A model generated the notes under the pieces. The model saw only the letters and a program-made list of their open reading frames with translations. It made no database searches and was not told the origin of the DNA. Below, piece after piece: positions 4,798-23,789 of a stretch of DNA of 24,040 nt. The DNA lies in the IMG/VR virus record IMGVR_UViG_3300031629_000081, positions 1 to 24,040 of that record. The stretch is one strand, 5' to 3'. The translations under genes were made by a program, and so were the position numbers. The stretch's first letter is position 1, and each line of letters opens with the position of its first letter. This DNA is from a virus.

Positions 4798-7578
4798 ATG
4801 GGATTTATTGCAAGTGCCATAAGCTCAATCATTAACGTTATTGTTGATGTTATTGTCGGTATAGTTGAAGCAATCGTTCAAATAGTTGAAACGGTAATTC
4901 TGCTAATTATGGTGCTCCTTGGGTATGATACCGGGGGCACCCAAACTGTTGAATATTATGAAGTTCGTAACTACCCCCTTTTCGGTGACGTAGATAAGAA
5001 AAATCCTATAGCGCAATCCATCCTTCAATCTATATTGTCGGATAAAGATCTTTCTAGTACCTTAATATATAATCTTACATTTCGGAGCTTAAAAGGAAAT
5101 ATAAAAGAATTTATGGATTTCATAGAGGATGGGAACTACTTTGAAGGGTTCCCTGCTATTGATTCTTTTATTCTGATTATTAATTACACAGAATTAACTG
5201 CCGCTTTACAAACACTTAATGGTGTACCGTGTACTCCTGAAGCATCATATTTAAAAGCCCTATCTCAGTCTGATTGGATCAAGTATTGGTTACAAGAGAA
5301 TAAAGAATACAATGTAGGGGCCAATACAATGGGTATTGGGAATGCAACTACTAGCACAACAGCAGGAACCCCCGCCGCAGATACCTTCCAGGTAATACCT
5401 TCTTTAAATCATTTTGATGTAAATATTACAAGTGAATCTGTAACTAGTGATGCTTTTGAGGCCGATCAACAATGGTCCGTTGATTTAGGCACCGTTGTAT
5501 ACAATGCAGTTCCTGATACTTACACCGTTCAAGTGTATAATGCAGCTGGAACAATAAGAACCCTGCCTTATACTGTACCAACTAAACCAGCTGAATTACA
5601 TTATGTGTCTGACTATTATAGAGATAGTCTTCCTTCTCGAAAATACTCATTTGTATATAAAGTAGGAACAGGAGTATATAGTGATTTAGATACTATAGAA
5701 GAGCCTATTAATATAGATAATGCAGTATTACAGACTATTCCTGCTGTCCCATTAAGAATTAGTAATTCAAATTACACAACATTTGGGGCTACTAAAAAAC
5801 AACAAATTGAAGATCTATTAGCTATTCTGAATTTAGATGCTAATGAGCTTATTACTGGGGTTCTGACTGACTCTGGATTAGCTGCTGGAGATGTAGATAA
5901 TGTGTATGTGAATTTTGGTGTACGCATGTGGGATGACTCTCAGGCTGGAATGTCTTATCTATACACAATGTTTGAGAATTTATATCCTGCCCAAGGAACC
6001 ACTCAAGGAACTTATGATAATACAGCTTCATCGGATACAAAACCTACTAACAATATACATACAACAACTGCCGATAATAATGCCGCTTTTCAATTTAACT
6101 ACATTCAATATACGCATACTTCATTAGCTACGATTAATGCTAGTAGTGGAAGTACTGAAAACGGGATTTACTATTCCGATCTGTCTAAATTCGGTGCGGA
6201 TGGGCTGTTAAAGTATAACTACTATAACTCATCAGGTAAAGGTACGTATAATGTCGGATATAAAGCAGATACGTTAACAGAAGTAGCTGCATTTTTAGCA
6301 GGCAATGGCACAGTAAATCCTGGTACTACTACTGCAGAAGCAGCTAATTGGTTACAAGTAACTACTCGGCTACCTTATAACGATCCTTCTCCTAGTTTAT
6401 TAGAATCAACTGGAACAGCTAGTACGTTAAAATTTTTAACTGCAGATGCAGTTTATGAAAATAACGGATCAGGAGTATTAAGGTACGTTCAAGAAGCTTC
6501 CGAGGAGACTACTTCAGGACAGTCAATTACGTATTATTGTATTAAACCTAGTGGGTTAGACGCGTATACCGTAGCTGCTCCTATTGGAGCTTTACGAGTA
6601 GTAGATGGAGATAGTGGTAGGTTTAAAACTGTTAAGTTTAATTTAGGGGATAAAGGGGATTTGATGGTCCCCTTTATATATACATTTGTTAAAGGATTAT
6701 CACATACGCAGGTAGCTCAACTATTTTTAGCAGGAGCACATGTATCGATCTATATAGCCCACTATGAAGTAATTGTACATGCGGGTATGAGTTTCTTTGA
6801 AGCCCTTGTAATAATTATTATTCTTGCTGTTATCATTTATTTTACTTGGGGTGCAGATGGCGGAGCAACTACTAAAGCTTTTATTAAAGCATTCGGTGTT
6901 GCAGCGGCAGGCGGAGTTGCAACTCTTGTTAAATTTGTATTAACCAAATTAGTTACTTACGCTTTTAAATTCATAGTTCAAAGTTTTATTCAGCAAATTA
7001 TAGCAGAAATAACAGATGACCCTATGTTACAGATGCTTTTAGGCATGTTAGCCAGTTTTGCTATAATGTCGTGGGAAGGTAATGTAACTTACGATGGTGG
7101 TGGTGGTGACCCTATGTTTGATGGTATGGGGGATATGATAGGTGATGTCACCATAACAGAAATGCCATCTGCTGGATTTAGTTTTAATTCCATGACTAGT
7201 TTTAAAAGTCCGTTATCATTCACTCCTTTACAATGGGCATCTCTAGGATTACAGGCCTTTAGCGGTGTAAGTTCTTTAAAAGCAACAGCTATTCAAACAG
7301 CTGCTAATGTCTTATCAACAGAAAGTACGGCTTGGAATAGAAATAGAGCGAAGAAATTACAAGAGATTAAAGAAATGGAGAATTTTCTTAATCAAGAAAA
7401 TTACGGGATGTCTACAGCAGCAGCTACTCGGTCATCGTGGAGAATGCGTAATAATTCTAGTGGAATAAAGGCTGATCAGTTGATATTAGGAATGTTGGGA
7501 TATGTTGATATATCATTACAGAGCATTGTAACCTCACCTGAGGTTACTTATGATCTATATGATGCAATGTTTGAGTGA
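4798..7578 (+). CDS. Large virion protein with membrane-active ends, putative ejection protein (926 aa)
   Basis: The N-terminus (residues 3-43) is an unbroken hydrophobic helix rich in Ile and Val, with acidic residues exactly seven apart (Asp17, Glu24, Glu31). It has no positive start or cleavage site, so it is not a signal peptide. The middle (about 175-650) is Thr/Ser/Asn/Tyr/Gly-rich and beta-like. Around residues 666-686 there is a strong transmembrane-like stretch (ALVIIIILAVIIYFTW), followed by a Gly/Ala-rich amphipathic region to about residue 760, a Gly- and Met-rich loop, and a charged helix near the C-terminus (about 845-880). Two membrane-active regions in a protein encoded between the capsid gene and the virion RNA polymerase suggest an internal protein that is ejected and forms part of the DNA channel. 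The family was not recognised with certainty. The start has no good ribosome site, but it lies six bases after the previous stop and translation may be coupled. Confidence 0.65.
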   Translation: MGFIASAISSIINVIVDVIVGIVEAIVQIVETVILLIMVLLGYDTGGTQTVEYYEVRNYPLFGDVDKKNPIAQSILQSILSDKDLSSTLIYNLTFRSLKGNIKEFMDFIEDGNYFEGFPAIDSFILIINYTELTAALQTLNGVPCTPEASYLKALSQSDWIKYWLQENKEYNVGANTMGIGNATTSTTAGTPAADTFQVIPSLNHFDVNITSESVTSDAFEADQQWSVDLGTVVYNAVPDTYTVQVYNAAGTIRTLPYTVPTKPAELHYVSDYYRDSLPSRKYSFVYKVGTGVYSDLDTIEEPINIDNAVLQTIPAVPLRISNSNYTTFGATKKQQIEDLLAILNLDANELITGVLTDSGLAAGDVDNVYVNFGVRMWDDSQAGMSYLYTMFENLYPAQGTTQGTYDNTASSDTKPTNNIHTTTADNNAAFQFNYIQYTHTSLATINASSGSTENGIYYSDLSKFGADGLLKYNYYNSSGKGTYNVGYKADTLTEVAAFLAGNGTVNPGTTTAEAANWLQVTTRLPYNDPSPSLLESTGTASTLKFLTADAVYENNGSGVLRYVQEASEETTSGQSITYYCIKPSGLDAYTVAAPIGALRVVDGDSGRFKTVKFNLGDKGDLMVPFIYTFVKGLSHTQVAQLFLAGAHVSIYIAHYEVIVHAGMSFFEALVIIIILAVIIYFTWGADGGATTKAFIKAFGVAAAGGVATLVKFVLTKLVTYAFKFIVQSFIQQIIAEITDDPMLQMLLGMLASFAIMSWEGNVTYDGGGGDPMFDGMGDMIGDVTITEMPSAGFSFNSMTSFKSPLSFTPLQWASLGLQAFSGVSSLKATAIQTAANVLSTESTAWNRNRAKKLQEIKEMENFLNQENYGMSTAAATRSSWRMRNNSSGIKADQLILGMLGYVDISLQSIVTSPEVTYDLYDAMFE

Positions 7579-7652: not shown

Positions 7653-8291
7653 ATGGCACTACCATATGATAGCAAAAAATCAGCTTTTAAGAATTTACCC
7701 CGTTCAAGATACCCTTCAGCCCCTCCTAATTATTTATTAGGCCCCGGTGGTGGAATGAGTAATATACTATCTGGTTCAGATTCTAGGGGAGCATATTCTT
7801 GGACCGAAGATCAAATGAAAAAAATAGGGGGAAGAATGAATCCTACTGAATTTACGGGAGATGGTACATCAGATTTACGCCCAGATGAATTTAGTAACGG
7901 ATTAGAATCTTTTAATTTAGCTAGTAATCAATATGGCGGAAGCAATCCGTTCAATCAAATCTGGGGTGGTGGAGGCATGCAGGATCCCAGGAGAGAAGGC
8001 GGTGCTGCTCCAGGGATGCTAAGTAAAATTGGTAATTATATAGGTGATAACCCTATGGATGTAGCAAATCTAGGATTAAATATATGGGGGCAAGTAAATA
8101 AAAATAAGGCCCTAAATCAAAATGAGCAATATTTAGGTGATGTTAGAAAAGCGATGGAATTTGATCAAGCTGATGTGAATAGACGTTGGGATTTAGCTAT
8201 GGGCGACTATAAAGTTCGGCAAACAGATCAAAATTTACATCGTGTAGCACAAGGTGGAGAGGCCCACGCTAAAGTATTTGAATCAGTATAA
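7653..8291 (+). CDS. Gly/Asn-rich internal virion protein of unknown function (212 aa)
   Basis: Residues 1-130 are rich in Gly, Pro, Ser and Asn (for example GPGGGMSNILSG and WGGGGMQD) and look flexible. Residues 131-200 are helical and end with a charged segment (QYLGDVRKAMEFDQADVNRRW). There is no signal peptide or clear membrane helix. It stands first in the run of three genes that ends in the giant polymerase gene. By position it resembles the small internal or ejection proteins of podoviruses (a role like T7 gp14 or an N4 gp52-region protein), but I see no sequence motif that proves this. The start is well supported by AGGAG seven bases ahead of the ATG. The next gene follows after 20 bases. 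Confidence 0.6.
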   Translation: MALPYDSKKSAFKNLPRSRYPSAPPNYLLGPGGGMSNILSGSDSRGAYSWTEDQMKKIGGRMNPTEFTGDGTSDLRPDEFSNGLESFNLASNQYGGSNPFNQIWGGGGMQDPRREGGAAPGMLSKIGNYIGDNPMDVANLGLNIWGQVNKNKALNQNEQYLGDVRKAMEFDQADVNRRWDLAMGDYKVRQTDQNLHRVAQGGEAHAKVFESV

Positions 8292-8311
8292 GTGCATAAA
8301 AAGGAAATACT

Positions 8312-10258
8312 ATGTCAGTCCTAAAAGGAAATATATCATCAGTATTAAGAAGAGCAGATAATAGTTTATTAAATACTTTGCGTCAAGGTATGGATGATGG
8401 CAATGATCTCCGAGCTCAGCAAGTTGCAGATGCTAAAGCCTCTCTTACTGGACTAGGTGCTAGTGCTGATGCAGATACTCAATTACTTCTTGCTCAACAA
8501 GATACCAAAGAGGGCGTACAAGATGTATTAGCTAATCAATTAGGTATGTTTGCAAATAAAGGAGTAGCTGCACAAACAGCTAGTGCAAGAGAGAAACTCT
8601 TGGCAGATCGAGAAACCACAGCTTTAAATAACTTTAAAACAGAGCTAGGAAATAAAGATCTACTAGAAGGCTTTCAAAATAAACGACAAATTAAAGACGA
8701 ACTTAAAGAGCTTGGCCAGTATCAACCAGGTACTCCTCAGTATAAAGAAGCATTAGAAAAACATCATCAATTTAATATAACTAATGCTGTTCCTGATAAA
8801 CAAATTACTGACATATATAGTCAACAATTTGCTACTGCTGATATCCAAATAAGGCCTGAAACTATTCAAGCTGCTATAGGAGCTGGAGTAGACCCAACTA
8901 ACCCAGATAGCTTTACTAAGAGTGCTCACAATACTGCAGTTAAAACTATCTCAGATAGATTACAAGGGCAGTGGACAGGTATACAGGATAAATCAGTATT
9001 TGATGCTAAAGCTAAAGATTTACTTAGTAAGTCTGAATGGGGTCAGAACTTTGATCGTCAAATTAAGCTTGAAGCTGGTCAAACTACTCAAGATGTTAGA
9101 TTAAAAGGTTTGAGTTCCAATATTGCAGCAGCTATTCGTTCAAAAAACCCTGATGCAGTCGATAATGAAGTAAATGCCACTTTAGACTTCTTACAAGCAA
9201 ATAATATAACTGGAGACAAAGCTAAAGTATTTGATAAAAATGTAGAATTAGCATTAGATCGTTCTAAAATAGATCCTGCTGCTATATTCCAAAATGCTGA
9301 ATATGGCAATACAACTTATGGAACTACGCAGAGAATTTCACCAACAAAAGCTTCTATGCTGCAAGCAGATATAAAAGCAGCATATCGTGAAAAATATCCT
9401 AATTTACCAGATCGTTTATTAGACCCACAAGTTGCTAAAGTTATTAGTGCAAACCAACAATTAGGTTTTGCTATTGCTGAAGGCAAAAAAGATGCTGCAT
9501 ATAAGGCAAATTTAGATGCAGATTTTAGAGAAACAGGCAGGGCATTTAAAGGACAACAACATAAAGCTCTTTTTGCTATGGCACAGGATGGTACAAAAAC
9601 TTATATAGCAGATAGATTAATTGATAAACTATCTAAATTAAAATTTAAATCTGAGGATGGTTTTACAGCAACAGATGCTACAGAAGTACAAAGAGAAACT
9701 TCGGAAGTAGTAGAACGATTACGAGGATTTTTTACAGATGATAAGGGTGACTTTCTTGCTGGTGCTAGTAAACAAACATTAGCTGCATTTAGATTAGCTG
9801 CATCTAAAGCCATTATTGGAAATGCAGGTATAGATGAAGATTCTTTGCCGGGAGATGGTAATGATCTTGTATTTGCAACGGTAAATAGATATCGACAAAT
9901 GAGTGATACATCTGATTATGAGTTATTAAAATTGTTTGTTGAAGCACTCCCAGATTCACAAAGATCTGTTGAATATGATAGTGATAAAAAGATCAATGTC
10001 AGAAAAGGAATTAATAGATTTACACAATTTGCAAAAGGAAGAATGAAGGATGCACACGCTGTAGGGTTACGTCCTACTAAATCCGGATTTACAGCTTTTA
10101 AAACAGGTATTAATAGTTTGGGATTGGGCGCAGATTTTGATCGATTACCGCCAATTAATAGTACTAAATACCAAGCTCTTATGACCCCAGTAGATGAGCA
10201 AGATGTAGTTAATCAAGATAGAACTAAAAGAGCTGCAATAACTGCTTTGACACAATAA
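8312..10258 (+). CDS. All-helical internal virion (ejection) protein (648 aa)
   Basis: Nearly every segment is predicted helical, with high Ala, Gln, Asp and Lys and very few aromatic residues, and no membrane segment or enzyme motif is visible. Length, composition and position directly upstream of the giant polymerase and transglycosylase gene resemble T7 gp15, which stands directly ahead of gp16. N4-type phages have a comparable internal protein (gp51 position). The likely role is a packaged helical protein that is ejected with the polymerase and helps build the trans-envelope tube. That role is inference from context, not from recognised sequence. AAGGA lies six bases before the ATG. The gene is in the same operon as its neighbours, with a 35-base gap to the giant gene. 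Confidence 0.6.
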   Translation: MSVLKGNISSVLRRADNSLLNTLRQGMDDGNDLRAQQVADAKASLTGLGASADADTQLLLAQQDTKEGVQDVLANQLGMFANKGVAAQTASAREKLLADRETTALNNFKTELGNKDLLEGFQNKRQIKDELKELGQYQPGTPQYKEALEKHHQFNITNAVPDKQITDIYSQQFATADIQIRPETIQAAIGAGVDPTNPDSFTKSAHNTAVKTISDRLQGQWTGIQDKSVFDAKAKDLLSKSEWGQNFDRQIKLEAGQTTQDVRLKGLSSNIAAAIRSKNPDAVDNEVNATLDFLQANNITGDKAKVFDKNVELALDRSKIDPAAIFQNAEYGNTTYGTTQRISPTKASMLQADIKAAYREKYPNLPDRLLDPQVAKVISANQQLGFAIAEGKKDAAYKANLDADFRETGRAFKGQQHKALFAMAQDGTKTYIADRLIDKLSKLKFKSEDGFTATDATEVQRETSEVVERLRGFFTDDKGDFLAGASKQTLAAFRLAASKAIIGNAGIDEDSLPGDGNDLVFATVNRYRQMSDTSDYELLKLFVEALPDSQRSVEYDSDKKINVRKGINRFTQFAKGRMKDAHAVGLRPTKSGFTAFKTGINSLGLGADFDRLPPINSTKYQALMTPVDEQDVVNQDRTKRAAITALTQ

Positions 10259-10293
10259 TCTTCTATGAACTCTTCTTCAAGTAAATATAACTC

Positions 10294-13200
10294 ATGGCCC
10301 AATCTAATAATGACTCTATCATTCAACAATTTTTAAATACCAGTACTCCTGTACAAGAACCCGATCCAAGTGCTTATGATTTTATTGGACAATCTGATAC
10401 TGCAGTAACTACTCCCCCTCCTACAGAAGATACAATAGCCAGAGCTCGATTGGCTTTCGCTAAAGACACTTCTAAAAGAAATATCGATACAGCTAAGACA
10501 ATACTTCAAGCTAAAAAAGCTTTAGGTATTGATCCTCGTGTTGCAATGCATGAACAATACATGCAAGGCATAGACACACGCAATGAGGGGCCCAGTACTG
10601 AAGAAGTATTCAATTTGGAATCATATAAAGCTTTAGTTAGAGGAGCAGAAACCGGTGGTCAGGTAGATTCTAACACTGCACAAAATCCAAATTCATCAGC
10701 TACAGGAACGTATCAGTTTACGGAAGGCACCTGGGCTGGTTTAATGGCTAAGCACCCTAATGCAGGATTAATTGCAGATGGACGAACCAATAGAGCTCAA
10801 CAAGAAATTGCTGAGGATCTTTTAGCAAGTGACGATAAAGACAATTTAGAAGGTAAAAATATTCCTGTAACAAATGGTAGTATGTATGTAATGCATACTC
10901 TTGGAGCAGGTAATGGAGCTACAATACTGCAAGCTGCTATGAATGGAGATACCAGACGAGCTGCAGAACTTGTACCTTCTCAAGTAGTAGAAAGCAATCC
11001 AACTTGGTTTCAAGATAACCCTACTCCACAGGGTTTAGTAGATCATTTATCAGGTCTTGTAGGTAGTCAACCAGCTACAGATCCTGTCACTAGTTTTACT
11101 TCAGGACGTATACCTGCTGATATTCCAGTAGAACCGGAACGCAGTGTAGGTTCTACGGCTGTGGAAGAAGAAGTTATAACACCGCCTTTACTCGCAGATC
11201 CTCCAGCTGAAGAAGAAAAAGAAACCGTACTAGAAAAACTAGGTCGTGCAGGAGATCAATTAATCTCAGGACTTAATAAAGCTGGGGATATATTATCTGA
11301 TAAAGATAAATACATTGATGCAAAAGAGGCCTTAATTGATGGTGCATCTAGAGCTCCAGGTGAAGCATTAGAAGGTGTTAAAAAATCAGGAGACATTATA
11401 GCTACAAAATTAGGTTTGAAATCAGACCCAGATCCAGATCCAGAATTACCTCCTGCTTCTACTATTAATTATTATGATTTAGTAAATGAAGCTGCTGAAG
11501 AAGAAGCTGGAACTTCAAATCGTCTTTCCATTATGGATATGGATGTTAGTCCACAAGTAAAAGCTAGTGTTCTTAAATTGACAGAAGCACCAAGTATGAA
11601 AATAGATTCTCCAATTATTAAAAGTAAAGGAGATAAAGTTTTCCAGCTTGAAAATCAAACATGGGTTGCAATTCTCAATGGTAAACCCATAACTAATCTG
11701 TCTGAAAAAGAAGCAACTTTTTACGCTACTCGTTTTGAGCAAGATGCTGCAAAGCAAGCTAATGGCGCTTATGAAGAATGGTCTGTTGGAGATGTTAAAA
11801 ACTATTTAATGAAGAGTATTGCTCAACCTGTTGCAGCTGGTTTTACTGCTGCTCTTGTAGGAGAACAATCATTACAAGGAAAAGTAAATGATTATAATGC
11901 ATTAAAAGGAGCACAGCCATTACTTAATGATAAAAAAACAGATCTGACACCTGCAGATATTAAACTGTTTAACTCTATTCTTACAAGTAAAACTTTAACT
12001 CCTGAGCAAGAAGCATTTAAAAATGATTCTAAATTTGGTGTATTGTCTAAGTTACAAAAAGAAGCAAATAACGAAAAAGAACAAGCAAAAAATATTACAG
12101 ATTATGCAGATAAATGGAAATCTGCTTTTCCTACAAATGATGCCGGGTTTCAAGCTAGTCAATCAATTTATGATTTAATTGCTGAAAAAGACGGAGAGTT
12201 TGCAGCTGTTTGGGAGATGTTAAAAAATCATAAAGCTGCATACGCTAAAGAAGGATTAGGCAGTGCTGCTTATTCATTAGCTTTAGTAAGTGGAGGATTA
12301 GTTACGCAAAGTGCCGTATTAACTAGTTTTATTATGGATGAATCGCAACGTGCTAAAGCCAAGTGGGTTGAGAAAAATGGAGCAGAAAATTATACGCCAG
12401 ATGTTCAATCTTCTATTGAAAATTGGATGGCGTTAAAAGTTATTTCTCAAAAAATAAGTTTAGGTTATCTAGATAAAGTAGTAGGTAAGGTTATTCCAGG
12501 TGGGCGTAAAAAATGGATTAAACAAATGGCTGCTAAGCTTAATAGTACTACTCCAACTAGTATTAAAGTTTTAGCTACAATTGGTGGTAAAGGGGTTTCA
12601 TTAGGAAGTGGTGTAGGTGCAGAAGCACTACAGGGCGCAGGTGAAGTAGTTATTGAAGCACAACTACCTGAAGCAACTCTTAACTGGAGAGAAGTATATC
12701 AAGGTGCATTAGCTGAAGGGTTAGGTTCATTAGCATTAGGTCCTACAATGGCTGCTAAAAATCTAACTGAAGCTACAGTTAAAAGTATTATACAACCTTC
12801 TAATAAAGAACGATTAAAGAAAGGATTACAAGCTGAGAAAACTCGGCTTGAAGAAAAAATTAAAAGGATTGAAAAATTTGAAAAAGAAACTAATCCTAAA
12901 GATCTTGCTAATTTTGAAAAATTAACAGAAGAAATAGTTGGAATAGAATCAGCTTTAGTTGAATTAACTAATCTTAGTATGGATGCAAAAAGCGGTGAAT
13001 TAAAAATAGATACAAAAAACACTGCAATTAAAGAATTGTTTGAAAAACATAAAAGTTTAGCTAATAAAACTAATGCTACATCTGATGATGTTATTGATGC
13101 AATTAGAACTGATTTAGAAGCAACATTACTTAATACACAAACTGAATTTGATGCTTTAGAAAGTCGTATTCCTCAAGTTATTACTAAACAACGCAGTATA

Positions 13201-16200
13201 AGGGAAGTATTTGCAGGAGCATCAGATACTACAACTATACGAGTAAAAGATACCGAGTACGGTAAAGGCTTAGAGCAACAAGTTGAAAAATACGAAGAAG
13301 ACATTAAAAAAATTGAAAATGATAAAGACACATCTGATGTTCAAAAAATTATAGCTATTGAAACACGACAAAAACAAATTAATGAATTAGGACAAAAATT
13401 AGAAGAGACTGCTAAACCAAGTTTATTAAAAGCTGAAAAAGTCTTTCTTCAAACTCAATTAGAGAAAAGAAAAATTCAAGTTGAAGGTGACAAAGCAGGG
13501 CAAGAAATTATTAATGTTCAGATTAATAAAGATGCTGGAACAGATATCTCTGATGAAGATGTTGCTTTTCAATTAGAAGAAATAGGAGTGTTAGATGATA
13601 GAAATAATCCTAACTACATACCTATTGAAGAGAATGACCAATATGGCCCTGGAGATATTGTTGATTTAAAAAATAATGAAAATCCAGATAATATAGATGC
13701 ACAGGGTTATGTAATTGAAGAAATAATTGGACTGTCAAGAGATGGAAAAGTATATGTTCGATTAAAAGGAGTCACTGATGCTGTTCAAGTAGATCAATTA
13801 ATTCCACGAGTTCGTCCTGATGAAACTCCTCGAACTATATTAGAAAAATTTCAAGCACTAACACAACGTAATCTAAGTGATGCTGCTCAAAAATTAGTTC
13901 AAGCTAAATTTGATGAGTTTATTACAAAATATGCCCCTAAAGATGATGGTAAAGGGGGTAAAACATTTGGCTCTATTGATGATAGTTACGAGGAACATGA
14001 AAAATTATCCATTGATGAAGCAAAGAAAAAACAAAAAGATATTAAAAATAATCCAGATTCTACTCCTGAAGATCTTGCATATTGGGATTATCAAGTTAAT
14101 CGAAAACAGGAACAGTCTCAAAGAGCTAAAAAAGAAGAGCAAGCCGATAAAACTATGGGCGATGTTCATTCAGAAATCTTAGAAGGTGAGTCTAAAAAGT
14201 GGAAAGGTTTAGCTAAATACCATGAAGAAATAATTAATGCATATAAAAATTTAGTTGATCCAGTAATTCGTGACAGAAACATTCGTGCCATTACTTCTAA
14301 AATGCGAACTCATGCTACTAATCTAACAAGTAAATTAGCTGCATTTGGAGAAGCTGATCGAATGATACCAAATTTAGCATCTGGTATGGGCGCAGTTGTT
14401 ATAGGTTCAATAGATCTAGCGTCACCAAAGGGTGTACGACAGATGAACTACAAAGTACAGCCTATGCCCCTAACAGAAGCAGATGCAAAAGCTCAAGCTA
14501 AAGCAAAGGGAACTGAGTATAGAGAAGGACAGTCATTTGAATCTCGTAAAAACAATGGGCAATTTGTTACGTTAATCACTGATAAAACTCATAAGTTTAA
14601 AGATTTTACTATTAAAAGATCTTCTGGTCTTATCAGTAATTTACAAACAGAATCTGAATACGGTAAGTTAATTATGGGTAGTGTAGAAGGTTATAAAAAA
14701 ACTTCTATGGCCCAGAACGCTGCTAACCAGCAAGTTAAGATTGAAGCTAAACAGAAAGTGTATGACCAGTTAGTTAAATTAAGGGGCAAACTTCCTCGAA
14801 TTATTAAAGAAATATCTGAAAAAGATCGTGAGAAAATTAGAGTAGATAAAGAAAAGGAGAGTAAACCCCTTTCGTTAATCAAACAATTAGAAAAGGCTGA
14901 GAAAGAGTTAGAAGCATTACAAAAAGCTTTTGATAACACGGAGAAAACTGATGAGACTAAACTTACCCTGGAAGAAGACATCGACAAACTCAAAAAAGAA
15001 ATTGATAGTCTTACAACCAGAATTGCTGAAGAATCCACAAAAAATGGTGACTCTCCAGGAAAAGATAAGCCACCTAAAAGTCCTCCTCCAGGTTCTGATG
15101 AAGTTGCTCCTGATGTGCGAGAAAGTGCTGAAGCTACAGAAGGTAAAAAAGGAGAGCAATTCGAATTCCCCTTCACAGGAAAGAATTTTATAGAGACGGC
15201 TACTCGTATGTACCACGCTGTTGTAGGTGGAAAGTTAGAGACCGTGTTTGGTTTAGTAGGTAAAAAGTTTACTGATTTAGTTAGTGTAGGTAAGAAGACT
15301 ACAATTTTAGGATTACAGAACTTAGCTGACACTAATTTTGCTGATGAAAAAGTGTTAGCGAAATCATTAGAAGCACTAGGCATTGATAGTAAAGCCGCTA
15401 AAGTTTTAGCTAATCGTTATTTTAAATTTAAAACACGGTTTGATAAGACTTTATTCCACTCTATAAAGATAGATAGAAAAGTTGTTTTATTAGCGAAAGA
15501 TGGGAATTCTAAAGAAGAACTGGCTGCGGCTGGGGAGACTTTCACTGTTTCAGAGATTGATGGTACAAATAAAACAGTAACTATCCATAATCAAAATGTA
15601 ACTGGAGATGACACATGGACAGTTCCTCTTAATGATGTAGTAGATGCAGAAAATTATGCTATCAGGCAACCATTATCACTATTGTACCGAGAAGATCTAG
15701 ATAATGCTGATAACCAACAAGGTACTTTACCTGAGCAAGTTGTCTTTTCAATGATGATTGGAGCAATGTCTTGGAGACAACGAACTACTGATAATGATCG
15801 ATTTGGGGGAAGTGAGTATGGTATGGAAGCTTTCCTATACAACAATCAACAGAAATTAGATGGTGATGAAAAAGTTCAATTAGGCCAAATAGGTTATGGA
15901 TACAATGATGTAGCTAGGCAAATAGGAAATGATATTTCTCAAATGCTACATCTTTCTCCTAAAAATGCTAATGGAGAATTGAGTCAAGAAGGTATAGATA
16001 TTTATTTTGAGCATTTGCTTCCGGCTCTTGGCATGGCAGCTATTGAAACAGCTCAAGGAACTGATAGTGAGTCTTACTTTATTAAAGATATACACAAATG
16101 GGACTTTGATGACGCTGACAGAAGTGCTGATGGACGGGTTTACAATAATAACCCTACAGGCAGCCAAGCAGAAACAGATGAATTTGGATACAGACACCTT

Positions 16201-19200
16201 AAAATTGATGAAAACCGACCTCCTTCTGAAGAAGGACTATCTGCAGTTAAAAGTTTAACTGAAACCTTAGAATTAAATATCCATTCAAATGCAGGTCCAT
16301 TACAAAGTCCTAAAGATATTAAAACTGATGTATCCGGTACTTTTGGTGATGTTCCATTAGAAGTACAAAGACTTATGAAGAAACTCCATAAAGTTGAGTG
16401 GAGTAAGTCTGAGCCAATGGATATAGTAAGTGATCTATTTGAAGATCATTATGATGTTTTAAAAGAAGTATTAGGTATTGAAGAACTATATGAAACTAGA
16501 ATTAAGGACGGTAAGGTTGAGTATGTCTACGAAATAGAATCAGGTAATGATTCTACTATTAAAAAAGAATTAGCACAGATTACGAAACAAGCTAATAATC
16601 TTAAAAAAGATAATCCTAATCTCGCAAAACTTCGTACAAAATACACTGCTCTTTTGGAAGAGCAGAAAGCAATACTTGCTAAAAAAGGCCAACCTAAACT
16701 AGATAAAGCAGGTGAACCTATTAAAAAAGGGTTGTGGCATAAGCGTGACATGGCAGCTAAAGAAGCTGCTAATAGAGATAAATTACTTAGCTTGGAAAGA
16801 CTTGTAAAAGCTAATGATAAAAATGAACTTGAAAAATTCTACTTCACTTACAACTTGCAAAATCATCATCGGATTATGCAAGAAGGAAAGATCAATCCTC
16901 AACAAAGTAAAGTTGATCGTTTCTTATTAAAATCTTGGGAACCTAAAACTTACACAGATAAAAATATGTGGAAGTTTGAGCTAGCAGTAGCTCAAAATTT
17001 TGGTACTAAGATTGATAAAGAAACCTATGGTGTTTCTAAAGCGGCATTTAATGATGTAATAAATGACCCTATTATATTAGAAGCTGTTAACGCCTACCAG
17101 ACATTAACTAAGGCTCGAGCGCTTGTAGAGAGTACTAAGCTTAAGAAAGCTAATACAACAAAACATAAAAATGCAGTAGCTGCTAAGAAAGTTGCAGCCA
17201 AAGAATTTGCTGAAGCTCTTTCAGCGGTTAAATTTACCTATAAAAAAGGCAACATGTCGTTACTCCAGGGGATTGCTGGATTATCTAATTACATGAAAGT
17301 TAGTCCTAGACCTTCAGCTAAGCTACGTTTTAGTAAAACACGGAATACTACGTTTAAATCAGATATTGTTATGGAGATCGATGGTATCTCTAATGGCTTT
17401 GCAATGAATGTTATGCAATTTCCTATGTGGGAAAATATGCCAGAGATGCTTGCTAAAGTAGCTACTTATTTTGGTAAAGATACAGAACATAATACCAAAG
17501 CTCCTGATACCTATGAAACTCTTGCTGAGTATGTACAAAAAGGTATGGGCGATGGAACAATGAATATTGAAAACAATACAATTCCGTACGAATACATTAC
17601 TGAAAATAATTGGAAAGATGATTATGATCCGTTATCTATTTATAAAAAGCGTAAAAGTAAATACAAGGCATATTCAGATAAAGATTCTAAGTTTATCGCT
17701 GAACAACTCAGACAGCGAGAGAAGGTTATTGAGGCAAGGGGCATAATTAAAGCATGGGCAAGAAAACATTACTCTGACAACAATACAAAAATTCTAGGCT
17801 GGGCAAAACTTAATTCCAAAACAAATAAGGAAATGTCCGTGGAGGACATTAAAGCAGAAGATGAGTTATATATAAAACAACTCTCATATACGTTTGATAG
17901 TAATTTTGTATTAGTGTTTAATAAAATGGATGCTGGACCTGAACGCACTAGAGCATTTAATGAGTTTAATAAAATAAGAAAATTACAAAAGTTAGAGCCT
18001 ATAAAGCCATTAAAGAGAGGAGATCGTGGAGGCGGTTCTAAAGCACGAACTAAAGCACAAGAAGCTGCATTTAATGCAACTCTTGATCGAGAAGAAAAAA
18101 TTCAAAGTGCAAACCATGCCAAAGCTCATAAGGAATTCTTAACAGACTACAATCAAATAAATGGTGCTCTTAATACTGTCTATTCTGATTTTACAGGTGA
18201 GGTAGGCGAAGAACTACGTTCTGTTGTTAAATATCCATTTATTATTCATATGTATGGTGGTGGGATAGATCGTATTTCAAAAGATGTTACTAAAGATATT
18301 ATTGGCCATATCTATGAACAAGTAGGCCTTTTACAACAACAATATAATGATGCACTAAGGGCTTCTCCAGAATCAGCAGCATTCTTTGAAGAATATAAAT
18401 CTGTCTTACCGTCAGATAACTATGAAAACATTGAATCAGGGGTTTTAAAGATTGACGGTATTGTGAGACAAATTGAAGAATTTGCTGCAGCTTTAGAAAC
18501 ATTAGGAGCTTTTAAGCAAGATAACAAAAGCAATGACAAGAACTTTATCCCCCAAAATGCAGACGCTTTTGTTAAGGCTATGGTCGAAGGAAACGGGTTA
18601 AATAAATATTTTAATGAAAATTATTTACGTGCCAACATCAGTACGACTATAGCTCCAAGATTTGATCATGGTCTCAAGACTATGTTAGAGCCTACTCAAG
18701 CGGCTAGAGATGCTATTGTTCAAATGGGTGGACTATTGCATGGGATTTTCATGGCTCACTTTACACAAGCTTATGAGAAGAAAATAAATGAACTAAACGA
18801 TGGACGTAGTACGTTAACTAAAAAAGAACTCACCGCATTAATTAAAGACGCAAAAGGAACTTTAATTAAAGTATACCCACAATATGCTGGTCCATTATCT
18901 GCTATTGATGAAAATGGTAATACTGAAGGATTTGTTGATTTAGCTAAAACTAAAAGCGTTTCAACAATCAAAGAAATAGTAAACGTACCAAAAGACATTG
19001 ATAAAAAAGATATATGGACTGCAGAAAAAATTACTCAATTTATAGAAGATAATGCAGATAATTTTACTGATGATGCACGAAAGCGATTACCTGCAATAAT
19101 AAATTTCAGAAAGGATATTTCTACAAACACCAAAGAAGATTTAGTAGATCTACTTAAGGAGCGAAATAAATTTGAAGATGAACGAGTAGAGTATAGAAAT

Positions 19201-22200
19201 GCTAAGCAGAATAAGGATGGTACATACGATTCTGATACTTCTACAGCTCATAATACATTCCCACAACAATTAAAATTTATTGAGCCTGGAGTGGCTGCGT
19301 TAATTCGTCAGATCATTAATATGGATTCTGTTTTGTTAACTCAAACAATGAATGGAGATCCTAATATTAAAGTAAACGGTCAACGGTGGGTAGGAGATGT
19401 CAATGTACTAATGCTGCATGATGCATTTATGGCCAGTCCAGAACAGCTATCTGAAATCAGTGAAGCTTATGGTCAACTGTTTTTACATTACAATCGTACT
19501 CATAGTGTTATTGAAAAAACGTATGACCAACTTAAGAAAGCTTTAGCTCTAACTAAATCAATAGATGACGCTGCACCGGAGGGCACCCCTCTATTGATGG
19601 ATAAATTAGATCGGTTTATTAGACACGAATTTTTTGATAATAAAAATAAAAAAGCTGAAGCTAAACTATTGCTTTCAGATATATTAAAATCAGTTGATAG
19701 AACTGTTAATAGCGTTGCAGAAGCCAGAGTTAGCTTTGAAGAATTAGCGTCAGAGAATGGTGGTCTTAGTGAGTCATTGCAAATGTTGATGCAACGACCT
19801 GAGCAAAGCCAATCTCTGGATGAAATGATAAATGATGTACTTCATGACTTAGCTAATGAAACAGCTGAAAATAAAAAACGTAATAAAATATCTCAAACCC
19901 CAATTCAAGAGCAATCGAATAAATCATTTGACGCTAATAATACGCTAACTCAAACTGAGTTTGATTTCTCTAAAAAAGACGTAGACGATTTAAAAAACTC
20001 GCTAATGTCAGAAAAGGGAAAGATTAGTGAAACAGAAAATCTAAATGACATAACGCGTAATACTGTTCAGTCTTTGTTTGGTGATTTTACTAAACTATCT
20101 GGTAATTATTACAATACTGCAGAAGAAGCCGCTAACCATACTGATACTCTTAGCCGAGTAATTGGTATTTTAAGTGAAGGGTTTGATTCAACAGCTGGTA
20201 TTCAGCTGACTTATGAGCAGATCCAAGGGATTACTCAAGGATCTTACAGTCAAGCTTTTGAGCGTATGGTAATTTCGAAGAGTCAACAATCCCCTACTAC
20301 ACGGAATGGGCAGTCTCCTCAAGAAGCCTATGCGCATGAATTATTACATGCAATGACGGGAATTGGGCTTGATCAATCTCCCCTAGTTAGACAGCGAATT
20401 GAAAAACTATATGATAATGTTTTAGATACTCTTGGGCGTAAATATGGTAAAGGACAAGAATATAAAGTATTCCTTCCTTCAAATACTGGACCTACTAATT
20501 TAGCTACTTCTAAAGAAATCTTAATGGCGAGAGAGCTATTTAATCATGCTTTCTATGCTAAAGAATCACATCGTTTACATGAATTTATGGCATTTGCTAA
20601 TACGAATGCTTCTTTATCTAATTTCATGAAACAGAACGATGTAGCTCAACGAACTGATCTATACGGTAGAATGTTGAGTGCGATTAAATACATTGTTGAT
20701 ACGATTAAACTCGTGTTAAACCAGAAAGTATACAACCCAACTGACTTGTCACAGGTTGCAGAAGCGGTAGCCATAACCGAACAATTGGTTGCTGCCCAGA
20801 ATAAACACAAGAGTAAACATGAGCAAATACGCAGTAAAGGATATAAAGCCTTAGATGCTTCTGATCAAATTATTAGAAAATTTGCAAACAATGCTTTTAA
20901 AGCATATGAAAGAGCAGCAAAGCAAGCTAGTGATGAAGGCAAAGATATTGAAACTGCTAGTGTTCCATTAAAAGTTGCTACTGGGTTAATTATGGTACCG
21001 TATATTTATTTTGGTGAACATAATGCTGTTCAAGAAATTCGTAATAGTGGAATGGAAAAACTCAATTATTCTTTACGAGGTATTCTGAAAGAATTTGGAG
21101 ATGGTGTTTTAAGTCCAGGAATGATTGAACAACTATTACAATCAAAAGTTAACATATCTAAACAACGACAATTAGCAGAAACGTTTCAAATAGATTGGTT
21201 TAACGGCAATAAGGCTAACGGAGTAAATAGTATTTGGCAATCACTAGATCCAACAAAAGATCACGCTATGTCAGTTGAGACCAGGGAAGCACTTACTAAT
21301 GTAATGCTTCGTACTGATATCTCTCAACTCATAACGGCAGGTCTTGATTTTAATTCACCTGCTGGAATGAAAAAGATTATTAGTTTAATTGGTAAAGACC
21401 CAACTGCTGGGCAAGAACGAGGTAGATTAAAACAACAAATATTAAAAAAATTAAATGTAAGCGGTGATCACTCAGCGGTTAAATATGCTAGCGAATTGGC
21501 TCACTGGATGATGACAGGAAATACAGAAAGATTATCGAATGCTCGACAGAATGCATATTCTATTGCTCTTGATTATTTACCAAATCCTACAGAAGAACGT
21601 GTTGGATTACTAGATGCTTTTGCAACTATTTCTGCATTAGGAGAAATAGATTCTAGAGATGCGGAAAATATTGGAGAATTAGCTAATAAAGAATTTGCAG
21701 CCAATCCTAATGAAAACGGCATAATTAGTATCATGCAAGCACACGTTCATTATAAAGCCAAATCACGAAGAGATTTATTTGATGGTGACCCTACACAAAT
21801 GATGAAGGGGTACATCGTTGAACGTATGGATAATTTAACAGATATTAAAATTGGTACACCAGAAGAAAAAGATGCAATGTATGAGCAAGGGTACACCTAC
21901 GAAGTGCCATTAAGTAAAATAGCTGCGGGGCAAACACACTATATTATGTACGTTAATCGTAATAAACCAGAAGTAAAAGATGTATCTGGTGTTATGTCAA
22001 CGACTAATCAACGTAATCAAGGAACAACATTGACAGAGATCTTAAGTTTAAATGATAAGTATAAAGACCCTGTTACTAAGAAACCAGATATGTTTATGAT
22101 TAGAGCTGAGGTTAAAAAGTTTAAAAAGCATCAAGATAAATTAGCTAAGCAACTCAGCTTTGATTCTAGATTTAAATTCCGTCCTATCTTTGATCAGAAC

Positions 22201-23547
22201 AATGTAATAACTGATTATCGAATAATGATGAACCATAAAGATACTAAGAAAATTCTTAAACCAGATTTAGAATTTCAAAATGTATTTGCTCACATGCATT
22301 CAAACTTAGTAGATCGTAAAAATACGATTATAAATGATAAAGAAACAATTCATCTATTAGTACATGAACAAGAAGATCTTTATAAAACATATCCTAATCA
22401 GTTTATTAATATATTAGATCCGGAAAGTAAGTATTTTGATCGTTACCAAAAGATGCCTCGGGCTATTAGAGAGTACATGCAAGAGTTTGCAGTAAGTGGC
22501 AAATTCATGGTTCGAATAGATATTATTGATAAGGTATTTGGATATAAACAAATAGATATTACTCAAGCAAAAGTATTTGAAAATAATCAACATCCATTTC
22601 TTAAACAAATGGCTGGGTTAGCTCACTACACAGTTAAAGAAACTGTAAGCTACGGTAAGAATCGAGTTGTACTAGCTGTTCCTAAAGTAATTATCGCAAA
22701 TATGATGTCAAATGTTGCGCAGTTACTTATGCGTAAAATCTCATTGTCATACATTACTAATAAATTACTTGAAGGTTTGTCAGAGTATAAACGGTACAGC
22801 AAAGATACTATTAAGATGAGAACACTTCAGTATCAAATTGATACTAAAAACTTAAACTCAACAAATAGTGCTGAAGCTCAGGAAGTTGCAAGATTAAAAG
22901 TTAGAATTGAATCTAACAAAATTCATGCAATGAATGAAGCCGGAGTAGACTCGTTAATTATTGAAGATTTAAATGACGCTCAATTAGATGGGTATTTTAA
23001 TAGAATGTCTCGTATTCTATTTAAAGGAAATCTTAAGCATATTGGGGATAAAATTCCTAGAACTCTACAAACAGTTGCACATACATTATTTTGGACTAAA
23101 GAAAGTTTGCCATATAAATACTCTAAACAAGTTGTACAGATGACAGACTTTATGGGTAGGTATGTAATGATGGAACATAGTCAGAATGTATTAGGACATA
23201 GTTTTAAAAAATCATTGCATGATTCACTAGAATCATTTGTTCTATTTGATGAATCTCTTATTGCTCCTTTAGAAATGCTAGATGCAATAGGTGCAACAGC
23301 TTTCTTATCTTATTGGCTTAGAAATCAGCGAGCTGTTAAGAAATTAGTACAAGCTAGTCCATCATCTGTAGCTATTTCTGCGGTTGTACAAGAGATGACT
23401 GGCATTCCTACATTAGGAAATATTAACAGTGCTTGGATGGGTGGTGATTTCTTTCCAAACGTAGCACAGACTGATGATTTGTGGGATGAAGCTAATAATG
23501 TAACATTATTTGAAGCAATCTCTCAACTCAAAGGAATGGTGAATTAG
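10294..23547 (+). CDS. Giant virion RNA polymerase with transglycosylase and metalloprotease-like domains (4,417 aa)
   Basis: In N4-type phages this protein is packaged in the head, ejected into the cell and transcribes early genes from hairpin promoters. Segments seen, in order: lytic transglycosylase (about 108-245; Glu119); acidic Pro-rich linker (250-400); hydrophobic Gly/Ala-rich regions (653-682, 755-822); coiled coils (838-880, 990-1065); small beta-barrel-like segment (1115-1165); coiled coil and Pro-rich linker (1530-1610); RNA polymerase (about 1622-3090); zinc metalloprotease-like region (about 3280-3480); unassigned helical C-terminus. The candidate polymerase residues are Arg2193, Asp2363, Arg2642, Lys2646, Tyr2654 and Asp3043. 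N4 gp50 is about 3,500 aa, so this is unusually long. No stop or frameshift interrupts the frame. The in-frame stop at 10288 and the lack of another Met before about residue 60 fix the start, yet no Shine-Dalgarno site is visible, which may keep the protein scarce. The polymerase call is strong; the protease function is inferred. Confidence 0.92.
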   Translation: MAQSNNDSIIQQFLNTSTPVQEPDPSAYDFIGQSDTAVTTPPPTEDTIARARLAFAKDTSKRNIDTAKTILQAKKALGIDPRVAMHEQYMQGIDTRNEGPSTEEVFNLESYKALVRGAETGGQVDSNTAQNPNSSATGTYQFTEGTWAGLMAKHPNAGLIADGRTNRAQQEIAEDLLASDDKDNLEGKNIPVTNGSMYVMHTLGAGNGATILQAAMNGDTRRAAELVPSQVVESNPTWFQDNPTPQGLVDHLSGLVGSQPATDPVTSFTSGRIPADIPVEPERSVGSTAVEEEVITPPLLADPPAEEEKETVLEKLGRAGDQLISGLNKAGDILSDKDKYIDAKEALIDGASRAPGEALEGVKKSGDIIATKLGLKSDPDPDPELPPASTINYYDLVNEAAEEEAGTSNRLSIMDMDVSPQVKASVLKLTEAPSMKIDSPIIKSKGDKVFQLENQTWVAILNGKPITNLSEKEATFYATRFEQDAAKQANGAYEEWSVGDVKNYLMKSIAQPVAAGFTAALVGEQSLQGKVNDYNALKGAQPLLNDKKTDLTPADIKLFNSILTSKTLTPEQEAFKNDSKFGVLSKLQKEANNEKEQAKNITDYADKWKSAFPTNDAGFQASQSIYDLIAEKDGEFAAVWEMLKNHKAAYAKEGLGSAAYSLALVSGGLVTQSAVLTSFIMDESQRAKAKWVEKNGAENYTPDVQSSIENWMALKVISQKISLGYLDKVVGKVIPGGRKKWIKQMAAKLNSTTPTSIKVLATIGGKGVSLGSGVGAEALQGAGEVVIEAQLPEATLNWREVYQGALAEGLGSLALGPTMAAKNLTEATVKSIIQPSNKERLKKGLQAEKTRLEEKIKRIEKFEKETNPKDLANFEKLTEEIVGIESALVELTNLSMDAKSGELKIDTKNTAIKELFEKHKSLANKTNATSDDVIDAIRTDLEATLLNTQTEFDALESRIPQVITKQRSIREVFAGASDTTTIRVKDTEYGKGLEQQVEKYEEDIKKIENDKDTSDVQKIIAIETRQKQINELGQKLEETAKPSLLKAEKVFLQTQLEKRKIQVEGDKAGQEIINVQINKDAGTDISDEDVAFQLEEIGVLDDRNNPNYIPIEENDQYGPGDIVDLKNNENPDNIDAQGYVIEEIIGLSRDGKVYVRLKGVTDAVQVDQLIPRVRPDETPRTILEKFQALTQRNLSDAAQKLVQAKFDEFITKYAPKDDGKGGKTFGSIDDSYEEHEKLSIDEAKKKQKDIKNNPDSTPEDLAYWDYQVNRKQEQSQRAKKEEQADKTMGDVHSEILEGESKKWKGLAKYHEEIINAYKNLVDPVIRDRNIRAITSKMRTHATNLTSKLAAFGEADRMIPNLASGMGAVVIGSIDLASPKGVRQMNYKVQPMPLTEADAKAQAKAKGTEYREGQSFESRKNNGQFVTLITDKTHKFKDFTIKRSSGLISNLQTESEYGKLIMGSVEGYKKTSMAQNAANQQVKIEAKQKVYDQLVKLRGKLPRIIKEISEKDREKIRVDKEKESKPLSLIKQLEKAEKELEALQKAFDNTEKTDETKLTLEEDIDKLKKEIDSLTTRIAEESTKNGDSPGKDKPPKSPPPGSDEVAPDVRESAEATEGKKGEQFEFPFTGKNFIETATRMYHAVVGGKLETVFGLVGKKFTDLVSVGKKTTILGLQNLADTNFADEKVLAKSLEALGIDSKAAKVLANRYFKFKTRFDKTLFHSIKIDRKVVLLAKDGNSKEELAAAGETFTVSEIDGTNKTVTIHNQNVTGDDTWTVPLNDVVDAENYAIRQPLSLLYREDLDNADNQQGTLPEQVVFSMMIGAMSWRQRTTDNDRFGGSEYGMEAFLYNNQQKLDGDEKVQLGQIGYGYNDVARQIGNDISQMLHLSPKNANGELSQEGIDIYFEHLLPALGMAAIETAQGTDSESYFIKDIHKWDFDDADRSADGRVYNNNPTGSQAETDEFGYRHLKIDENRPPSEEGLSAVKSLTETLELNIHSNAGPLQSPKDIKTDVSGTFGDVPLEVQRLMKKLHKVEWSKSEPMDIVSDLFEDHYDVLKEVLGIEELYETRIKDGKVEYVYEIESGNDSTIKKELAQITKQANNLKKDNPNLAKLRTKYTALLEEQKAILAKKGQPKLDKAGEPIKKGLWHKRDMAAKEAANRDKLLSLERLVKANDKNELEKFYFTYNLQNHHRIMQEGKINPQQSKVDRFLLKSWEPKTYTDKNMWKFELAVAQNFGTKIDKETYGVSKAAFNDVINDPIILEAVNAYQTLTKARALVESTKLKKANTTKHKNAVAAKKVAAKEFAEALSAVKFTYKKGNMSLLQGIAGLSNYMKVSPRPSAKLRFSKTRNTTFKSDIVMEIDGISNGFAMNVMQFPMWENMPEMLAKVATYFGKDTEHNTKAPDTYETLAEYVQKGMGDGTMNIENNTIPYEYITENNWKDDYDPLSIYKKRKSKYKAYSDKDSKFIAEQLRQREKVIEARGIIKAWARKHYSDNNTKILGWAKLNSKTNKEMSVEDIKAEDELYIKQLSYTFDSNFVLVFNKMDAGPERTRAFNEFNKIRKLQKLEPIKPLKRGDRGGGSKARTKAQEAAFNATLDREEKIQSANHAKAHKEFLTDYNQINGALNTVYSDFTGEVGEELRSVVKYPFIIHMYGGGIDRISKDVTKDIIGHIYEQVGLLQQQYNDALRASPESAAFFEEYKSVLPSDNYENIESGVLKIDGIVRQIEEFAAALETLGAFKQDNKSNDKNFIPQNADAFVKAMVEGNGLNKYFNENYLRANISTTIAPRFDHGLKTMLEPTQAARDAIVQMGGLLHGIFMAHFTQAYEKKINELNDGRSTLTKKELTALIKDAKGTLIKVYPQYAGPLSAIDENGNTEGFVDLAKTKSVSTIKEIVNVPKDIDKKDIWTAEKITQFIEDNADNFTDDARKRLPAIINFRKDISTNTKEDLVDLLKERNKFEDERVEYRNAKQNKDGTYDSDTSTAHNTFPQQLKFIEPGVAALIRQIINMDSVLLTQTMNGDPNIKVNGQRWVGDVNVLMLHDAFMASPEQLSEISEAYGQLFLHYNRTHSVIEKTYDQLKKALALTKSIDDAAPEGTPLLMDKLDRFIRHEFFDNKNKKAEAKLLLSDILKSVDRTVNSVAEARVSFEELASENGGLSESLQMLMQRPEQSQSLDEMINDVLHDLANETAENKKRNKISQTPIQEQSNKSFDANNTLTQTEFDFSKKDVDDLKNSLMSEKGKISETENLNDITRNTVQSLFGDFTKLSGNYYNTAEEAANHTDTLSRVIGILSEGFDSTAGIQLTYEQIQGITQGSYSQAFERMVISKSQQSPTTRNGQSPQEAYAHELLHAMTGIGLDQSPLVRQRIEKLYDNVLDTLGRKYGKGQEYKVFLPSNTGPTNLATSKEILMARELFNHAFYAKESHRLHEFMAFANTNASLSNFMKQNDVAQRTDLYGRMLSAIKYIVDTIKLVLNQKVYNPTDLSQVAEAVAITEQLVAAQNKHKSKHEQIRSKGYKALDASDQIIRKFANNAFKAYERAAKQASDEGKDIETASVPLKVATGLIMVPYIYFGEHNAVQEIRNSGMEKLNYSLRGILKEFGDGVLSPGMIEQLLQSKVNISKQRQLAETFQIDWFNGNKANGVNSIWQSLDPTKDHAMSVETREALTNVMLRTDISQLITAGLDFNSPAGMKKIISLIGKDPTAGQERGRLKQQILKKLNVSGDHSAVKYASELAHWMMTGNTERLSNARQNAYSIALDYLPNPTEERVGLLDAFATISALGEIDSRDAENIGELANKEFAANPNENGIISIMQAHVHYKAKSRRDLFDGDPTQMMKGYIVERMDNLTDIKIGTPEEKDAMYEQGYTYEVPLSKIAAGQTHYIMYVNRNKPEVKDVSGVMSTTNQRNQGTTLTEILSLNDKYKDPVTKKPDMFMIRAEVKKFKKHQDKLAKQLSFDSRFKFRPIFDQNNVITDYRIMMNHKDTKKILKPDLEFQNVFAHMHSNLVDRKNTIINDKETIHLLVHEQEDLYKTYPNQFINILDPESKYFDRYQKMPRAIREYMQEFAVSGKFMVRIDIIDKVFGYKQIDITQAKVFENNQHPFLKQMAGLAHYTVKETVSYGKNRVVLAVPKVIIANMMSNVAQLLMRKISLSYITNKLLEGLSEYKRYSKDTIKMRTLQYQIDTKNLNSTNSAEAQEVARLKVRIESNKIHAMNEAGVDSLIIEDLNDAQLDGYFNRMSRILFKGNLKHIGDKIPRTLQTVAHTLFWTKESLPYKYSKQVVQMTDFMGRYVMMEHSQNVLGHSFKKSLHDSLESFVLFDESLIAPLEMLDAIGATAFLSYWLRNQRAVKKLVQASPSSVAISAVVQEMTGIPTLGNINSAWMGGDFFPNVAQTDDLWDEANNVTLFEAISQLKGMVN
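10615..11028 (+). other. Lytic transglycosylase (SLT-type) domain within the giant protein
   Basis: Residues about 108-245. RGAETGG places the catalytic Glu at 119. It is followed by NPNSSATGTYQF and GTW (131-147), the classic pattern of phage and bacterial soluble lytic transglycosylases, and by MHTLGAGNGA from residue 200. The family cleaves the MurNAc-GlcNAc bond of peptidoglycan. A local opening of the cell wall during DNA ejection, as for T7 gp16, is the likely use. Confidence 0.85.
15157..19563 (+). other. Single-subunit (T7/N4-type) RNA polymerase domain within the giant protein
   Basis: Residues about 1622-3090. Motif B reads RSVVKYPFIIHMYG, exactly the Rx3Kx7YG spacing of T7 RNA polymerase (Arg627, Lys631, Tyr639). 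Motif C is MLHDAFMASPE (Asp3043), like T7 LIHDSFGTIPA. Motif A is MEIDGISNG (Asp2363), like T7 AFDGSCSG. A candidate for the conserved fingers/palm arginine is NHHRIM (Arg2193), followed by NPQ as in T7. The domain boundaries are estimates. N4's minimal active polymerase is about 1,100 residues, so this one is about a third longer. Confidence 0.9.
20131..20733 (+). other. Zinc metalloprotease-like domain within the giant protein
   Basis: Residues about 3280-3480. YAHELLHAMTG gives HExxH at 3348-3352, and 78 residues downstream of His3352 comes HEFMAFANTN with Glu3430 as the likely third zinc ligand. This HExxH...E(F)xAxxxTN pattern is found in metallopeptidase domains of large multi-domain phage and mobile-element proteins. 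Activity and target are unknown: self-cleavage of the ejected protein or cleavage of a host protein are both possible. Confidence 0.7.
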
Positions 23548-23555
23548 TTCTAATA

Positions 23556-23786
23556 TCACCCGTCTTCTAGGTCAGGGTAATGCCCTGATTCATTATCTTT
23601 TCGCATTCCATCCTCGTCGATCTTACGTTCAGTAAGGTCCTTCTTAATACTCGCTGCAACAAAACTTGCTGCAGCTAGCATAGGAATAGTCCATACCATC
23701 TTATCTGTTAGGAATGCCATGATATAGGTAGGTACTAATACAATAAGCCCTTGTACTAGGGCTATTTTTATACTGTGTGCATCCAT
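23556..23786 (-). CDS. Small membrane protein, holin-like (76 aa)
   Basis: Two hydrophobic helices (about residues 6-27, ALVQGLIVLVPTYIMAF, and 30-47) are separated by a very short turn (TDK) and followed by a strongly charged tail (KKDLTERKIDEDGMRKDNES). This topology and length are typical of small phage holins, which make holes in the inner membrane at the end of infection, but also of other small phage membrane proteins. No family was recognised from sequence. The gene points toward the giant gene and ends eight bases from its stop codon. It starts three bases after the end of the 57-aa gene, so the two are probably translated together. There is no clear ribosome site. Confidence 0.6.
   Translation of the reverse strand: MDAHSIKIALVQGLIVLVPTYIMAFLTDKMVWTIPMLAAASFVAASIKKDLTERKIDEDGMRKDNESGHYPDLEDG
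23572..23588 (+). terminator. Possible weak terminator hairpin at the end of the late operon
   Basis: TCAGGG, the loop TAATG, then CCCTGA form a 6-bp stem 24 bases after the stop codon of the giant gene, followed on the + strand by a T-rich stretch (TTCATTATCTTTT). It lies inside the 3' end of the minus-strand 76-aa gene. It could end the late transcript, but the stem is short and the T-run is broken. Confidence 0.3.
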
Positions 23787-23789
23787 AAA

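Follow-up and report, generated by a model that had tools for sequence, protein, structure and literature searches.

A 4,417-residue virion RNA polymerase homologue of an N4-like virus with a predicted, exchangeable wall-cutting module at its N-terminus

The window analysed here is a 24,040-nt stretch of viral DNA whose genes lie in the order gp59-58-57-56-55-54-53-52-51-50, the same as in phage N4; all window features described below are on the plus strand. The portal protein gene (N4 gp59; 3..665; PHROG 1216, 8.4e-48) is cut by the contig end and retains its C-terminal part. The major capsid protein (N4 gp56; 2231..3574; PHROG 1357, 4.5e-116) was 49-51% identical to those of the best-matching cultured schitoviruses. 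A 926-aa homologue occupies the place of the N4 tail plug gp53 (4798..7578), as judged from its position and a match to PHROG 2220 (2.9e-47). It is followed by a 212-aa protein (7653..8291), the positional equivalent of N4 gp52, and by a 648-aa ejection protein (8312..10258), assigned as the equivalent of N4 gp51 by position and size; a family search with the latter gave no match. Two differences in length were seen among these genes, with L numbers designating the sequences compared with the window. The protein at the place of the tail tube gp54 (window 4267-4791) has 174 aa versus 299 in N4, a size also present in L002, L004, L005 and L042. The gp52-position protein ranged from 165 to 217 aa across the clade (window 7653-8291; L004:4769-5266; L024:1287-1796), while its neighbours were constant in length.

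The last gene of this order, the homologue of N4 gp50, encodes a protein of 4,417 aa (10294..23547) that matched the PHROG virion RNA polymerase (vRNAP) family, PHROG 2206, along the whole chain with an E value of 1.9e-139. The frame starts with ATG, ends with a stop codon and has 0 internal stops; it fills 55% of the window as one uninterrupted frame, just as the earlier note had read it, and the calculated mass of 494.4 kDa agrees with the roughly 490 kDa estimated there. At the base composition of the window, the chance of a stop-free run this long is ~10^-139. The GC content of the ORF was 19.5% at codon position 3 versus 49.6% at position 1, the pattern of a real coding frame. The start codon was supported by the finding that MAQ.. 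opens, at the matching position, every relative whose N-terminus is contained in its sequence.

We considered whether the extra length could be an artefact of assembly or gene calling, produced by a chimeric contig or by fusion of neighbouring genes. The split frame of Alteromonas phage AD45-P1 shows that records of this gene are error-prone, and window 18053-20398 is covered by no other assembly of the same virus. However, window 294-18052 was matched at 99.95% by an independent metagenome contig and window 20399-24040 at 100% by another, so that the uncovered stretch is flanked on both sides by concordant sequence. Furthermore, complete homologous frames were found in three other contigs (L039, 4,450 aa; L024, 4,506 aa; L025, 4,582 aa), and the gp51, gp52 and gp53 equivalents are each present as a separate gene. 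Because independent contigs agree and complete long homologues exist elsewhere, the frame is no assembly accident; the artefact was regarded as refuted by the long relatives and was rejected as hardly conceivable. Searches of the window for tRNAs, Rfam families and tandem repeats gave nothing explanatory for the giant ORF. In AD45-P1 (L016:1606-13288) the vRNAP record consists of two frames (2,481 and 1,409 aa), and its annotation points to a potential frameshift.

For the polymerase region, profile methods were needed because residues 1600-3100 had no match among phages by direct tblastn. A profile comparison of this region with the N4 vRNAP had been set beforehand as the check on its identity, and it gave a significant match. 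When the clade profile was aligned by hhalign with ten known vRNAP polymerase domains (N4 and nine relatives), a probability of 99.8 and an E value of 3.8e-28 over 864 columns were obtained, and the alignment placed the RNA polymerase region at residues 1800-3215 (15691..19938). The window sequence alone reached 98.4% and 6e-15 against the same domains, whereas the controls, a reversed and eight column-shuffled profiles, gave E values of 0.37-0.97. In searches of the PDB, a profile including Rhodovirinae-type relatives found the N4 structures at 1.9e-24; the clade-only HMMER profile did not reach them, and the single-sequence search returned noise only.

All six catalytic residues aligned with their N4 counterparts. 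These are Arg2193 (16870..16872; N4 Arg1421) at the TxxGR motif, here QNHHR; Asp2363 of motif A (17380..17382; N4 Asp1556), which sits in MEIDGISNG; Arg2642, Lys2646 and Tyr2654 of motif B (18217..18255; N4 Arg1663, Lys1667 and Tyr1675); and Asp3043 of motif C (HDA; 19420..19422; N4 Asp1948), which sits in LMLHDAF. In mini-vRNAP numbering the N4 residues are R424, D559, R666, K670, Y678 and D951, known catalytic or conserved positions. The motif A sequence EIDGISNG also fits the pattern ExDGxxxG used by others to screen for vRNAPs (PMC10654107). Downstream of the polymerase, we found an HExxH motif (HELLH, residues 3348-3352; 20335..20349) in a zincin-like C1 domain, kept in L024, L025, L036 and L039. 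The HExxH of N4 is at 2228 and belongs to the C1 domain (PMC12633501). The best stretch of the PHROG 2206 match was the conserved vRNAP C-terminal domain (residues 3339-4390; 20308..23463), which had tblastn matches in 311 phage records. An AlphaFold2 model of residues 2060-3215 (mean pLDDT 49.6; fold search without a significant match) was too poor to show the palm or to judge the placing of Asp2363 and Asp3043 within it.

Taken together, the profiles, the catalytic residues, the HExxH and C-terminal domains and the gene order strongly suggest that the ORF encodes the virion RNA polymerase of a schitovirus (an N4-like phage), in line with the earlier proposal based on T7/N4 signatures lying in the right order. 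Alternatively, the RNA polymerase domain could have lost its catalytic function and serve only as a scaffold within a polyvalent injected protein. N4-like RNAPs are part of the network formed by such proteins (PMC5512222), and both the degenerate TxxGR motif and the large insertions in the polymerase would fit this reading. Such a loss would be hard to reconcile with the catalytic Asp pair and the motif B Arg and Lys, which are kept even in L039 at ~40% identity, and we consider it very improbable.

The assignment as a vRNAP was consistent with what was found on a longer contig. L024, the nearest of the long relatives, is encoded on a contig of 73,993 bases, inside the 59-80 kb range of Schitoviridae genomes (PMC7650795). 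This contig also encodes an N4-like RNA polymerase, the one further N4-like RNAP gene identified besides the vRNAP, together with a gp25-type ATPase, DNA polymerase, primase, portal and terminase. Schitoviridae have three RNA polymerase genes per genome. The late-gene order characteristic of the family, gp59 to gp50, was present in the window, itself a 24-kb fragment. With high confidence, we assign the ORF as the virion RNA polymerase of an uncultured virus that is either a member or a close relative of the Schitoviridae.

We then compared the size of the chain with that of known vRNAPs. It is 917 residues longer than N4 gp50, which bears out the earlier figure of about 900. The remark that its length is unusual for the class holds to the extent that published reference vRNAPs have 2,842-3,820 aa (PMC10654107), but the chain is not a one-off. 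In the sample measured here the reference vRNAPs had 3,022-4,093 aa, and in the window clade the chains had 4,417-4,582 aa, with that of the window being the shortest complete member among those found. Because the complete relatives are longer still, the large size is a trait of the clade. The upper value of the reference sample comes from Vibrio phage 1.169.O (L018:507-12788), a cultured schitovirus whose vRNAP of 4,093 aa exceeds the published range and is annotated only as a coil-containing protein; a hydrolase domain was looked for in its first 1,000 residues and was not found.

The alignment with N4 was used to locate the extra residues. Ahead of the polymerase marker W1827 there are 1,826 residues, versus 1,158 at the aligned column in N4 (+668). 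The interval from W1827 to R2193 is longer by 104 and that from motif A to motif C by about 290 in all, made up of +172 between A and B, ~137 of these being one insertion, and +116 between B and C; the part from motif C to the C-terminal end is ~180 residues shorter than in N4. Most of the growth in this clade has taken place at the N-terminus of the chain and through insertions in the polymerase. The enlarged N-terminal region (residues 300-1599; 11191..15090), defined from its length relative to N4 and from hydropathy, is helix-rich and charged, with residues 662-680 as its most hydrophobic stretch; a family search with residues ~403-1069 gave no match. The insertion between motifs A and B (residues ~2456-2600; 17659..18093) is optional, being present in the window and in L025 and L036 and absent from L024 and L039. 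L025 and L024 differ in this ~137-residue insertion despite 84-88% identity, and it had no PHROG match.

At the N-terminus, a conserved leader (residues 1-96; 10294..10581), delimited by comparing L004 with L005, precedes an exchangeable module. In the window this is a lytic-transglycosylase-like module (residues ~108-242; 10615..11019), recognised from profile and tblastn matches. It matched the PHROG 4067 transglycosylase at 9.2e-12, and a profile of four module sequences matched the lytic transglycosylase gp144 of phage phiKZ (1.2e-6). Among annotated phage proteins, the closest was the ejection protein of Dinoroseobacter phage DS-1410Ws-06 that corresponds to gp51 (tblastn 2e-18); the match to Pfam PF06737 was below threshold. 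Glu119 (10648..10650) is the candidate catalytic acid, and its AE.G context was invariant in all four clade members with this module type. In an AlphaFold2 model of residues 1-320 (pLDDT 47), gp144 was the best fold match, at a non-significant E value of 0.59. From these comparisons, residues ~108-242 are predicted to be a lytic transglycosylase. This module and its swapping, missing from the earlier note, are the most informative part of the protein.

The swapping became apparent when members of the clade were compared along their length. Between L024 and L025, identity is 84-88% over most of the chain, and yet residues 74-283 had no blastp similarity at all. Likewise, L004 and L005 share 74% identity overall, 90% over residues 1-50 and 84% over residues 51-100, but 10-27% over residues ~101-350, where ~240 residues after the leader are unrelated. 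L004 and L025, in contrast, are only 57% identical as proteins and have a second module in common, at 50-69% in 50-residue blocks. These breaks in identity, together with a module shared by the distant L004 and L025, indicate that the cassette has been exchanged against the phylogeny of the carrier protein. The second module matched PHROG 873, endolysin-type/internal virion protein families (3e-13 and 4e-15), and more weakly the PHROG 7182 tail injection transglycosylase; a LysM domain (1e-11) is added in L023, L024 and L025. Within the clade, the transglycosylase module can be replaced by a wall-hydrolase-like module unrelated to it, in some members accompanied by LysM; elsewhere the proteins remain 74-88% identical. 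A wall-hydrolase module is not obligatory, since none was recognised at the N-terminus of L039. In the publications consulted, we found no description of this cassette exchange or of the size class of 4.4-4.6 thousand residues.

The N-terminus of the 4,450-aa L039 protein (L039:1412-2671) is of neither module type. It looked lysozyme-like by eye (IAEG..VPFG) and had no Pfam, PHROG or tblastn match, and a lysozyme is not claimed. A weak match of L005 to an ADP-ribosyltransferase (0.016) was not accepted.

Comparison with known systems placed the module in a wider context. N4 gp50 (PHROG 2206; PDB 2PO4, 3C2P and 9PNR) has the same order of N-terminal domain, polymerase, HExxH C1 domain and helical C-terminal domain, and shares the catalytic residues and the place in the late operon, but lacks the transglycosylase-like module. 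With the domain libraries used, N4, LUZ7, BUCT194 and JA-1 had no wall-hydrolase domain on either the gp50 N-terminus or the gp51-type protein. In the Vibrio and Pseudoalteromonas schitoviruses pYD6-A, PJN101 and pVa5, the vRNAP N-terminus is likewise peptidoglycan-hydrolase-like, although of lysozyme type rather than transglycosylase type and on vRNAPs of only 3,220-3,344 aa. The pYD6-A N-terminus matched a PHROG tail lysozyme at 1.1e-20 and that of pVa5 matched Phage_lysozyme at 6e-4; the match of PJN101 was weak and sub-threshold (0.02). In the Rhodovirinae phage DS-1410Ws-06 and in phage Presley, as in the window virus, the ejection proteins include a transglycosylase of SLT type, but there the domain sits on the gp51-equivalent (3e-7 and 4e-9, respectively), whereas that of the window sits on the vRNAP. 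T7 gp16 (internal virion protein D) resembles the window protein in being the largest of the ejection proteins and in starting with a transglycosylase domain, but it has no RNA polymerase domain; internal virion protein D homologues of Aeromonas T7-like phages matched the N-terminal module, the part of the window protein that was compared. The transglycosylase domain of gp16 opens peptidoglycan in T7. Fusions of N4-like RNAPs to a metallopeptidase, and sometimes to lysozyme/transglycosylase, ADP-ribosyltransferase or RNase domains, were described by Iyer et al. 2017 (PMC5512222), and the combination of RNAP, metallopeptidase and lysozyme/transglycosylase is known, for example, from a Moraxella prophage; the lysozyme domains of such injected proteins were proposed to breach the wall. 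The fusion in the window is similar, but in the publications consulted we found neither an exchange of modules at the level of a clade nor a class of 4.4-4.6 thousand residues described for those polyvalent proteins.

By analogy with N4, the vRNAP would be packaged in the head and ejected together with the gp51- and gp52-type proteins. The N-terminal module may cut or loosen peptidoglycan locally where the ejectosome assembles, as the gp16 domain does in T7, and the T7/N4-type polymerase domain, whose catalytic residues are intact, would afterwards transcribe the early genes; polymerases of the N4 gp50 family act on single-stranded hairpin promoters. Local opening of peptidoglycan during ejectosome assembly is the role that we favour, with some reservation, for the module on the basis of its domain type, position and swapping. 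The ejection proteins of N4 appear to be without wall-opening activity, which is presumably supplied in trans (PMC12633501); the module therefore points to a way in which the wall may be opened by related ejectosomes. It is also conceivable that the protein is a vRNAP but that its module is a remnant, decayed or structural, with no part in wall cutting; another factor would then open the wall, as has been supposed for N4. The weak Pfam score, the fold search of the module model without a significant match, the lack of such a domain in N4, LUZ7, BUCT194 and JA-1 and the N-terminus of L039 are consistent with such a remnant. It is, however, at odds with the substitution of a different hydrolase-like fold plus LysM at the same spot in the clade, with the invariance of Glu119 and its surroundings among carriers, and with the occurrence in cultured phages of unrelated domains of lysozyme-like type at the corresponding position, and we regard it as rather unlikely.

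On a broader view, this clade of uncultured schitoviruses might use a single ejected chain of 4.4-4.6 thousand residues both to open the wall and to begin transcription, swapping the wall-cutting module as a cassette and perhaps tracking changes in host peptidoglycan; we judge the chances of this broader reading to be about even. With the domain carried on either the vRNAP or its partner gp51, and with the cassette being swapped, the wall-opening step becomes testable in this virus family. The earlier suggestion that such a chain would have to unfold to pass the tail is an inference and describes one option; structural work on N4 proposes a passage either in unfolded form or like beads on a string (PMC12633501), and the chain may also be cut by its HExxH domain before it passes. 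If it is packaged intact, its 4,417 aa would set harder bounds on the size of protein that a short-tailed phage can eject. Another giant polyvalent protein was seen in Microcystis phage Mwe-JY07 (L009:7869-16369), where a 4,985-aa "DNA methylase" with InPase and Eco57I methylase domains starts with the same transglycosylase-like domain.
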